A stretch of 64,000 bases of DNA from Ectocarpus siliculosus (taxonomy: Eukaryota; Sar; Phaeophyceae; Ectocarpales; Ectocarpaceae): assembly GCA_000310025.1 (NCBI GenBank), contig FN649727.1:5784537-5848536 (forward strand), read 5' to 3'. A program made the translations under genes and the position numbers. Positions 17,501 through 27,009 of the stretch are shown piece after piece (the stretch's first letter is position 1; every line of letters starts with the position of its first letter). The notes beneath the pieces were generated by a model. It was not told where the DNA came from. It saw only the letters and a list, made by a program, of their open reading frames with translations, and did no database searches.

Positions 17501-20500
17501 CCCCGTGTTTCCGACAGCCTCAAGAAGCTCGCGCTCGTCCTGGAAGGTGATGTTGACCGACCGCATCACGTCCGCCCCGATGCCCCGGTCGGCGAAAGAA
17601 CACAAACCCGACTCCTCCGCCATGTAGGGGTAGACCTACACACAACGGAGAAGAAGAAATGGGGACAACGCGTCGGAATCACCGTTCAGAGAGAGAGAGA
17701 AAGAAGTTGATACTCCTTGTTCCTGACGAACAGACAACAGTGCATAGGCCTTCGCTACTAGTACCAGCAACCAATACGGCAACATGTTTTCACCGAGGCT
17801 TGGCGATGCGGTCCACACGGAGTTAGCTACTTGGGGAGGGGGGTACGTCCAAGGACGCGATTTCCGACTCCTCCGCCGGACAAAGTGCTACATCAACAGC
17901 GTGCAGAAAACCTCTTCTCAATCACCAAGGGGCAGCGCGACTGACAAGACCAACACAACAAAATCGAGTGATGCCTCATTCGTTGTCCCGTTGTCGCGCG
18001 TACAGCAGTCCAGCTGCGTACTGTACAAGTCTGACTACTCTCATCTGTCCTCCGGCTGCTTGGCGCGCTCGATGCCAACAACAGAACACGCACACCCGCA
18101 AGCAAGCCCAAGCCCACGCGGACGCACGCACGCACATACCTCCTCCGTATCGAGCCCTCCCGCGCTGGCGATGTACTCGAACGCGTGGGACGGCAGGCCG
18201 CCGTTGCAGCCGTGGTTGTCGTAGGCCCCGGCGCAGTCCAACAGCTGCTGCTCGGAGAGGAGGACCATCTCGCCGGTCCTGTTGGATTGATTCGGTTCGG
18301 TTGGATTCGGTTAGTTTGGGTCAGGTTGGTTTGGTGTATGACGCGCACAACACAGGAGAGGAGAGAAGACAGGAAGAAGCACATGGGTGGGTACGAATGG
18401 TCGCGACAAAGGGGCAGATTTGTTATTTTTCAAGGTTCAGCTGCAAGAGCTTGCTCGCGCATGAAACCGTTTTTTTTTTTTGCGTGCGCGTACGGCGAAC
18501 GCAACCCATCAGTTTGTTCTTGTCGGGCAGTGCAAAACAAACCTCCCGCGTTTCCTTCCTCCTGCGTGACCCCGACTGGAAGGTATGACGCCTCGAAACA
18601 CGGTCATGTCAAAACACCGTCGCCAAATTACACAACAGGACACATGATCATCATGTACAACGGCGGCGAGAGTGTACTTCAAGAGCACGTGATGCCACTG
18701 GTGGGAGGGAGACCTGATGTACCATGTGCATGCGCTACTGTATGTACGTGGTGAACTCTTTCATCTGGTTTATCTTCGCGCGCCCTATCCGTTGCGCTCG
18801 GAATCGATCGCTATTAGAAACACAACATAAAAAATGTGCGACAGCAGAAAATGAACAAAGAGAAAAAACACAATGCACAACAAGCTCTCTCTCCTTCCCC
18901 CACCCGTCGAAACGGACAACCGCGACTTAATCTTACAACTACCCGCAAAGCACCAAACACCAGCACTATTACCACCACCCGAAAAATCATCACCACAACA
19001 ACCCACCACCACCACCACAGCAGAGGAGCAATAAATCTCTCACCGCAGGTAGTGGTGAGACTCCAGGCAGCCCGTGGTGCTAAACGTCCAGCAAGACCCG
19101 CAGTGGTCCTGGTTCTTCACCACCGATACCGCTCCGAGGTCCCTCCAGTCGCGCGCGGCGGGCGGGGCTCGGCCCTTGCTCAGGCCGAGGGCGCGGTACT
19201 GGCTGCCGACGTGGGTCGCCGAGCAGTTCTGGCTCGCGCTCAGGGCGCTGCCGAAGCCCAGGCGGGTCGCCTGGAACTCCTCCCTGTGGCGTTTCGTGTT
19301 TGGCGTGTGTTGTTCCCCCGTGAGAATAAGATAAGGCTGACATGATAGATTCATAGCATCGTATTGGTGTGTGTTATTGCCTCGTGAGAAGAAAATAAGG
19401 TTGAAAATTGGAACACAGATCTAGCTAGGATGGCGCGAAGCAACGGTTTGCGCGGAATGAGTCTCGATCTTGGTTTTATGAAATGATGGCAGACGGTAGG
19501 TGTAGTAGTAGCGAACCCGTAGCCGTGAGTAGCAACATGCTGAGCTTCTACATCCTCTGCTACGCACAAGTGGCGGAGGAGCTTCATAGTATAACAAGGG
19601 CACTATAAGCGCTGCACCCTTTGGCACGGAGGGGGGGACTGCCATTCAGAAGGAAAGCTGCGAGGAATTTGTTGTCATACCTGCCGGCGCAATTCTTCAC
19701 CCCAACACACAAGCCGCCGGTTCTCCACAACACACCACAACAACACCTACACACAAAGCGCCGATTCTCCACAACACACGCTCACGCACCAGGTCATGTC
19801 CGAGAACCGGTTCAGCCCGAGGGAGTAGCTGCGGGGAGTTGCCGCGTCGTCGACAGCCTGGCGCAGGTTGTCTCGGAACACGCCCATGCGTTCCCTCTCC
19901 TCCTCCTCGTCCGCGTACGTCACGCCGTGTTTCTCCTTCCAGTCACGAAACAGCGCGTTCTCTCGCTCCTGTGCCCGTTCCGGTAAGACAGACGTGTGGC
20001 AGGTCGGAGGACAGCGGGCAGCAGCGGCGAGCCAGCGTATTTTAGGGAATGATGTCACCCGGCAACGCCATCAACGCTTACGCAGCATCGCCGTGGTGAA
20101 ATCATATACAACGGGGGGGGGGGCCGCAGAAAATAATAAGAGGTGCCAAAGGGGGAGGGCCGCGCTGTGTCCGTGGAGCGCCCCTGGAATCCATTAGTGG
20201 TACCACACCATACCGCCAACGACAAGAATAAACGGGCTGTGCTCTACATGCAAGCGAGACAAAACACCGCATTAAGACCGTTGCCGCCTCTGCCTGGTAC
20301 CGCTAACCCCCACCTCCTGTCCCAGCGTGGCGGCGGTGCCATCCTCATCCTCATCCTGGTTGTTGTCACAGTTGAACACCACCTTCGGCAGTTTCTGAAT
20401 ATTATGCGTGCACAAACAGCCAGCGGATGTGGGGGGGTGGAGGAAACGTTATGTTGACAGAGGGGACTTGGTGGCGTATGGTAACTGTTGGAAGCGCACG

Positions 20501-26500: not shown

Positions 26501-27009
26501 AGACTAAAGATTAACAGCAATATGTGTGTATTCATTCCATGCATGGGTGCTATCGTCTGAGAGGCGTACCAAGCAAAGCTTCAAGGCTCGCTCTGCCGTA
26601 ACCATGCCACGTGGTGGCCGTTCCCAACACAACCGCCCGCGCGTCCGGCATGATGCTGACCCGGTCTCCAACTGCAACCCCCAAAAATGACGAATGAATA
26701 CAATAGACTACTGGTAGGCGCTATTCAATTGCTCCTCCGCGACATGCGTTTAAAACGCATGTCGCGCTGCAGGCTATCGTAGAGTACCTTGGCCATCGAT
26801 GGCGGCACACACTTGGAAGGGAGCAACTCGGACAAACACCACGAGCACGCTTCTCCGCTGTCGTCCTGCGAAAGCCGGCAGGTGACCGCCGAAATTGGCT
26901 TGAAACACGGGTCTTCCAAGGGACTACCAGATCCGGACCCGTGGCACAGGTCAGCCACCGCCGCCAAGGCCAGCAGCAAGGGTCCCGTCTTCGTCAGCGA
27001 CATCACCAT
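14524..27009 (-). CDS. Aleurain/cathepsin H-type cysteine protease with cysteine-rich modular N-terminus
   Basis: Secreted or vacuolar papain-family (C1A) endopeptidase, 668 aa. Exons right to left: 27009-26788, 25431-25135, 23710-23621, 22931-22789, 22128-21915, 20394-20314, 19968-19790, 19283-19044, 18278-18140, 17635-17480, 16390-16319, 15226-15141, 14611-14524; all phases fit. Residues 1-24 are a signal peptide ([14 protein letters not shown]). Residues about 30-322 hold three cysteine-rich modules (CxWC core, ending AK at an exon border) and two of the three short modules of the xLPxxxFxCD type; the third is exon 6. The I29 prodomain (about 350-410) has [10 protein letters not shown] and [11 protein letters not shown]. 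The catalytic domain has Gln467 and Cys473 ([15 protein letters not shown]), His614 ([11 protein letters not shown]) and Asn635 (KNSWGPEWG). [22 protein letters not shown] and [13 protein letters not shown] place it with aleurain/cathepsin H. The N-terminal part is not typical of that family. Confidence 0.9.
17236..17285. repeat. Short poly-C-ended repeat in protease intron 10
   Basis: The sequence ggcatgcaaaacacgagcac followed by a C-run resembles the end of the unit at 1484-1600 and of the inverted copy at 23285-23410. Only about 50 bp are recognisable, so this is a fragment. Confidence 0.45.
21350..21592. repeat. Large inverted duplication (hairpin) in protease intron 5
   Basis: Two arms of about 110 bp face each other across a 12-bp spacer (gcttgaatcggt at 21467-21478). 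The arms meet as ttcgacaa and ttgtcgaa and share long identical blocks, for example agaccacgtccgagttcttg and ccttcaatggcggggcgtgg. Both arms, read towards the centre, encode the same peptide pattern (KTTSEFLNE, then [11 protein letters not shown], then FDK), so the hairpin may derive from a duplicated coding fragment. It lies inside the intron between protease exons 5 and 6. Confidence 0.75.
23285..23410 (-). repeat. Inverted copy of the 1484-1600 repeat, in protease intron 3
   Basis: Starting from a G-run at 23290, the sequence gtactctcatgttttgcatg, then cgcgtcctcgagagga and ccgatcaccgatggcc is the reverse complement of 1484-1600. The order of blocks is preserved, with a few mismatches and short indels. 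Confidence 0.65.
23763..23832. repeat. GA-rich microsatellite
   Basis: About 70 bp of gagaga and cagaga units followed by a short A-run, in protease intron 2. It produces long but meaningless Arg/Glu open frames. Confidence 0.85.
24150..24655. repeat. Foldback element of about 505 bp in protease intron 2
   Basis: Left arm from aggcccatgtttgtggtttc (24151) and right arm ending ggaaaccataaacatgggtc (24631-24650) are reverse complements with scattered mismatches. Shared blocks include atcttcctttctttggacaa, gactttttcgaccttttggg and cagtctgcctcc. The arms are about 250 bp each and meet near 24402 at atcttggcccaagact, leaving almost no loop. This fits a foldback or MITE-like element or a recent inverted duplication. 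Target-site duplications are not clear by eye. Confidence 0.8.
25032..25072. repeat. GA dinucleotide microsatellite
   Basis: About 40 bp of uninterrupted (GA)n in protease intron 2, just beyond the donor of exon 2. Confidence 0.9.

Follow-up and report, generated by a model that had tools for sequence, protein, structure and literature searches.

Why does a cathepsin H-type protease gene of the brown alga Ectocarpus siliculosus carry three cysteine-rich modules ahead of its propeptide, and what might these modules do? The gene lies in a stretch of 64,000 nucleotides (assembly GCA_000310025.1, contig FN649727.1, positions 5,784,537 to 5,848,536 of the forward strand), called the window throughout. 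The explanation we favour, with a probability of about 55%, is that the module is a zymogen adaptor in the pro-region of stramenopile cathepsin H and underwent two tandem duplications in the Ectocarpus lineage.

The gene comprises 13 exons on the minus strand, running from position 27009 to 14524. All borders were GT-AG, and the exons formed a single open frame of 669 amino acids (aa). They were placed by an anchor-based script that printed each border, and the model was drawn from the genomic window. An earlier note on this DNA had ended the gene at 19790; exons 8–13 extend it beyond that point (14524–19283).

Pfam identified I29 (PF08246) at residues 357–413 (50 bits) and Peptidase_C1 (PF00112) at residues 451–666 (243 bits), both above the curated cut-offs. 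The closest solved structure by sequence was pro-cathepsin H, aligned over residues 349–667. The motifs of the catalytic Gln, Cys, His and Asn were all present (VKNQ at 465, CGSCW at 471, VNHA at 613 and NSWG at 636), and the mini-chain motif QNCSAT at residue 428 aligned with pro-cathepsin H. The mammalian motif is EPQNCSAT, located before the mature N-terminus. The cathepsin H/aleurain-type identity given in the earlier note was thus borne out by domains, active-site motifs and alignment: judged by its sequence, the product is a predicted protease of this type (C1A), with the enzyme part of an ordinary cathepsin H. The N-terminus is likely a signal peptide, as we read its letters. Residues 1–351 gave no Pfam match, even at an E value of 10.

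The window gene model was built from genomic sequence, and an annotation artefact has to be considered, i.e. exons 1–6 being a separate small cysteine-rich gene beside a plain aleurain gene. This is exceedingly improbable. The frame is unbroken across 13 exons with consensus borders, and two further Ectocarpus annotations, as well as kelp, xanthophytes and oomycetes, have an equivalent fusion. P0001 from Ectocarpus sp. CCAP 1310/34 (667 aa, a cluster of 10 sequences) has a module, I29 and C1 layout identical to that of the window protein, and the partial P0002 from E. fasciculatus, annotated as a single protein, shows the same layout. Both depart from the window model at the join of exons 3 and 4; at the join of exons 4 and 5, P0001 departs and P0002 agrees. 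In Vaucheria, module, I29 and C1 were found on one chain (P0070, with an MMETSP transcriptome identifier).

The three copies of the module are located at residues 33–84, 132–183 and 282–333 and contain 6, 6 and 7 Cys, respectively. Their pattern is C-x8-C-x10-C-x-W-C-x8-C-x8-LPxxxF-x-CD. Aligning them, a check proposed in the earlier note, gave identities of 54% between modules 1 and 2 (28/52), 42% between 1 and 3 (22/52) and 58% between 2 and 3 (30/52). As shuffled pairs (10,000 per pair) never exceeded 12/52 identities, the likeness is not due to chance. Of the 51 modules available from the window and its relatives, 17 were aligned, and ten columns were invariant: six Cys, the Trp of CxWC and the L, P and F of LPxxxF.

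The regular intron borders described before were confirmed. Exons 1, 2 and 5 finish in MAK, LAK and TAK at phase-0 donors, and exons 2, 3 and 6 start with the LP-type part at phase-0 acceptors. Hence, a phase-0 intron splits all three copies at the identical point, between AK and xLP. The two sides had been taken as two separate modules; the duplication stood, the separation did not. Because the unit is continuous in relatives, which have one to four copies of it, head (ends of exons 1, 2 and 5) and tail (starts of exons 2, 3 and 6) can be assigned to one intron-split domain of ~52 residues.

Relatives were found via the protease part among candidates of ~367–1167 aa, and plain cathepsin H thus fell outside; 1980 proteins were found and 120 were listed. 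Such a search is a weak test of whether the module occurs outside cathepsins. A hidden Markov model (HMM) of the module was positive in 31 of the 120 listed proteins, the weakest row being P0040 (E 1.4e-4). One copy was present in 22 proteins, two copies in 2, three in 6 and four in 1. The remaining 89 proteins yielded nothing with a looser Cys pattern. All 31 bearers had the module before I29 and possessed a CSAT-like mini-chain motif; the module ended 86–158 residues ahead of this motif, and the interval holds I29.

An organism label was available for 22 of the 31 bearers (nine were unlabelled), and these we take to be stramenopiles throughout: Ectocarpus, Undaria, Tribonema, Vaucheria and oomycetes. 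Some labels were shortened, and Undaria was read from 'Undpi1'. Among the listed proteins, kelp, Tribonema, Vaucheria and Phytophthora kin had a single copy and Saprolegnia up to four. The module looks like an old part of cathepsin H in the stramenopile lineage. The statement that aleurain-type proteases normally have only a signal peptide and I29 fails for the listed stramenopile proteins. One bearer, P0099 from Pythium insidiosum (900 aa), combined two modules and cathepsin with PF01545 and PF16916, presumably cation efflux domains; it is perhaps two genes joined in annotation.

Further modules were searched for elsewhere. When the Ectocarpus genome itself was queried with module 2, the three modules of this gene were returned. 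Module 3 returned the same three and row C15 (E 0.024), which was rejected as an extra module: its translation lacks the first two Cys and has an internal stop. In the same genome, a Vaucheria module retrieved two of the three known modules, plus row C64 at E 2.2. An Aphanomyces module as query gave two C11 rows there (E ~0.04, each with a stop) and missed the known modules, which makes it a weak negative. A hand-made module HMM gave no other match above threshold in the window and 36 loci. No module match was confirmed in viral contigs, and the single match in prokaryote contigs (21 residues, a Lachnospiraceae metagenome-assembled genome) was taken as chance. With the N-terminal part as query, homology searches recovered the two Ectocarpus proteins and no others (2 of the 7997 candidates scored; 2 of 6); since they need shared 5-residue words, they are a weak guide to distant proteins.

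The module tree comprised 50 modules (P0040 excluded) and 55 columns, with long branches flagged in the output. The nine Ectocarpus modules were monophyletic (97/98) and adjoined two kelp-type modules (95/80), within the algal set (97/91). One of the kelp-type modules was from Undaria, the other from the unlabelled P0004, which shares 82% identity with the Undaria protein. The Saprolegniales arrays branched elsewhere, and the triplication looks specific to the Ectocarpus lineage and separate from the Saprolegniales amplification. The protease tree comprised the window protein, 29 of the 31 bearers (the partial P0002 and P0070 excluded) and 26 of 48 module-less proteins with a mini-chain. Ectocarpus and kelp types grouped at 100/99 and were joined by Tribonema P0011 and two unlabelled rows at 100/98; the oomycete rows grouped together at 100/97. 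These data are compatible with one gain of the module in stramenopile cathepsin H, without proving it.

In the full alignment, module 3 (window 21915–22040 and 20365–20394) falls at the position of the single modules. Moreover, it is the sole window copy with CxWCxC, which gives an odd seventh Cys. In the simplest story, module 3 would be the inherited copy and modules 2 and 1 later gains of the Ectocarpus line. CxWCxC was also found in 16 of the 22 single-copy modules, and 15 of these 22 have seven Cys in all. The seventh Cys was missing from the multi-copy oomycete modules, and no joint variation with a candidate partner in the C1 domain (TTGC, residue 479) was seen by eye in the alignment with the plant proteins P0082 and P0095.

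If module 3 is ancestral, modules 1 and 2 could be drifting duplicates whose number is neutral, with module 3 as the functional copy. Both lack the seventh Cys common to module 3 and to the kelp and xanthophyte modules, one copy suffices in related lineages, and conservation is lowest in module 1. However, modules 1 and 2 of three Ectocarpus sequences retain all six scaffold Cys along with the W and the LP..F motif, and module 2 is identical to P0001 at 52/52 positions and to P0002 at 49/52. Neutral copy number is therefore rather improbable.

The earlier note had proposed exon shuffling onto the protease, and this was not upheld. Introns of the same phase were not found at both module borders. 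The classic sign of exon shuffling is absent because the shared phase-0 intron lies within each module; moreover, the module occupies the equivalent position in relatives from kelp, xanthophytes and oomycetes. Shuffling of two separate exon modules was ruled out by the continuous domain in relatives. For the second duplication, a possible route is the copying of a symmetric 0-0 exon like exon 2 into the inner intron of a module, by which a whole module would be added and the frame kept. The first duplication needs a break in the linkers, because a one-module gene has no exon of the exon 2 type. With blastn, only short chance-level matches were found among introns 1, 2 and 5. Hence, the age of the duplications, or the divergence of the introns, has erased any legible trace of either step in the DNA.

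To the observed anatomy, homology, copy numbers and branching, we add latency, maturation and the adaptor role by inference. By analogy with cathepsin H, the enzyme would be produced as a latent precursor with the I29 segment in the cleft. Maturation would then strip I29 and everything before it except the mini-chain, leaving an aminopeptidase. As the cathepsin H pro-region is lost at maturation except for this mini-chain, the modules would act on the zymogen. There they may be binding units, i.e. adaptors for a sorting receptor or for a matrix or cell-wall ligand, and extra copies would mean more avidity. We favour a sorting or anchoring adaptor because in many plant aleurains the corresponding place is taken by a segment with NPIR, the vacuolar sorting signal of aleurain. 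NPIR was absent from the 669-aa model and from all 31 module bearers among the 120 listed relatives. Among the listed proteins that have a mini-chain-like motif but no module, it was present in 17 of 48. In P0082 and P0095, it aligned with columns of the module tail. Accordingly, module and NPIR were mutually exclusive in the listed set (0/31 versus 17/48, with neither in 31/48).

The same position allows for a role in latency or stability. The modules could brace I29 or cover the cleft, with copy number tuning activation and no outside binding. They are N-terminal to I29 in all 31 proteins, and the odd seventh Cys of module 3 and of 15 of the 22 single-copy modules could bond elsewhere in the zymogen. 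However, linkers part the modules from one another and, in the window protein, module 3 from I29 (17 residues, acidic). In the AlphaFold model of the Undaria protein, the module was confidently folded and the block between module and I29 was poorly predicted (residues 81–90, predicted local distance difference test score of 56), which favours loosely tethered units. We consider a latency extension unlikely.

The modules could also be excised and act as free cysteine-rich peptides, for which the granulins released from some plant papain-like proteases are a model. The units are short, cysteine-rich and bordered by linkers open to cleavage. This is quite improbable, as 22 of the 31 relatives have a single copy, and neither granulin (no Pfam row for the window protein at E ≤10) nor any other peptide family matched in the proteins scanned.

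Several points weigh against the adaptor explanation and the history given with it. The case for an adaptor draws solely on where the modules sit, how they fold, how well they are conserved and how often they are repeated, and 31 of the 48 module-less mini-chain proteins are without NPIR as well. Module 1 is less conserved (44/52 to P0002) than the adjoining linker (43/47). The module tree has just 55 columns and long-branch warnings, and the Ectocarpus clade could stem from concerted evolution of older copies. The deepest split of the protease tree is weak (80/38). Finally, two module-less proteins group with bearers: P0023 from the stramenopile Chattonella groups with P0020 (its start has no evident signal peptide and its sequence is perhaps incomplete), and the unlabelled P0061 falls among the bearers in the 32-row half of the protease tree.

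Table 1. Exons of the cathepsin H-type gene in the window and the protein parts they encode
Feature	Position	Strand	Evidence
Whole gene: 669-aa procathepsin H, cysteine modules 1-3 ahead of I29	14524..27009	-	exon rebuild, Pfam, PDB match, 667-aa orthologue P0001
Exon 1: signal-peptide-like start, module 1 head (residues 33-74)	26788..27009	-	exon rebuild, module HMM
Exon 2, phase 0-0: module 1 tail, linker, module 2 head (residues 132-173)	25135..25431	-	
Exon 3: module 2 tail, acidic/Gln linker	23621..23710	-	exon rebuild
Exon 4: linker joining modules 2 and 3, without Pfam match	22789..22934	-	exon rebuild, Pfam
Exon 5: linker, module 3 head (residues 282-323), seventh Cys kept (CVWCTC)	21915..22128	-	
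Exon 6: module 3 tail, acidic linker	20314..20394	-	exon rebuild
Exon 7: bulk of I29 propeptide (I29 overall residues 357-413)	19790..19968	-	Pfam
Exon 8: I29 end, mini-chain motif QNCSAT (428), catalytic Cys region CGSCW (471)	19044..19283	-	
Exon 9: Peptidase_C1	18140..18278	-	Pfam
Exon 10: Peptidase_C1	17480..17635	-	Pfam
Exon 11: Peptidase_C1	16319..16390	-	Pfam
Exon 12: region of catalytic His (VNHA, 613) and Asn (NSWG, 636)	15141..15226	-	
Exon 13: C-terminus, stop	14524..14611	-	exon rebuild

Two introns contain repeats. Intron 2 holds a fold-back element (window 24151–24651) whose nested inverted repeats, 116 and 76 nt long, are 91% complementary. A 191-base arm query of the own genome gave 40 matches including itself (40 of the 86 candidates scored) with 89–100% identity, several of them inverted pairs ~310 bp apart. 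From these features, the element is classed as a repeat family resembling miniature inverted-repeat transposable elements. In intron 5, an imperfect palindrome was found (window 21351–21590; 114-nt arms, 81% complementary, 12 nt between them). An open frame on the plus strand (27208–27378, ATG at 27241) begins ~230 bp upstream of the cathepsin gene, which makes a common promoter region conceivable.

No Pfam or NCBIfam model matched the module in the proteins scanned. Sequence searches of the PDB gave nothing of note, with a best E of 0.82 for one module and 1.2 for the 17-module profile. The PSI (plexin-semaphorin-integrin) domain shares the CxWC core and a similar Cys order, but the module is without one Cys of the PSI CxxC. 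Using hhalign, module and PSI aligned over 22 columns (P 0.00065, probability 27.5, 0 of 200 column shuffles as good) with a PSI profile in which five of the six rows had been written out by hand. Pfam PSI gave no row for the window protein (E ≤10) or for six relatives (E ≤1). The PSI-like Cys order is a lead only. In a wider form of our explanation, the module would be the first example of a domain specific to stramenopiles, perhaps a reduced PSI relative, and would act as a zymogen adaptor replacing the plant sorting segment, with copies raised independently in Ectocarpus and Saprolegniales. We hold this tentatively, at less than even odds. If true, module copy number would be a natural dial for where or how strongly the protease is held.

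Human and porcine (pro)cathepsin H (C1A; PDB 6czk, 6czs, 8pch) have no cysteine module before I29 and match the window protein at residues 349–667 only. Plant aleurain and oryzain gamma (for example, P0082 and P0095) are cathepsin H-type proteases that also have an N-terminal segment ahead of I29. This segment contains NPIR and no Cys module, whereas the window protein has no NPIR.

The modular C1A proteases of oomycetes (C1A:ML, C1A:CAP and C1A:CBM1) are likewise papain-like stramenopile enzymes with added domains, which are C-terminal in active secreted proteases; the ML fusion is also named for brown algae, and no N-terminal module is described in the available part of that source (PMC10084794). 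Cathepsin H lineages are treated without mention of the module in the accessible text of PMC10380794. The module was also undescribed in the accessible part of PMC3681718 and in the titles and abstract starts searched, with subscription papers mostly out of reach.

Among stramenopile cathepsin H proteins, those of Undaria (P0003), Tribonema (P0011), Phytophthora (P0036), Aphanomyces (P0042) and Saprolegnia (P0043) have one to four copies of the module in the equivalent place. They differ from the window protein in that kelp and Tribonema have a single copy and the Saprolegniales arrays fall elsewhere in the module tree. The module marks stramenopile cathepsin H, with an apparent parallel tandem amplification in two distant lineages. 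It belongs to a well-studied protease family and is present in kelp, yellow-green algae and many oomycetes, yet the scanned proteins gave no Pfam or NCBIfam match for it. As a defined, foldable unit, it is a target for asking how a vacuolar-type protease is sorted or anchored.
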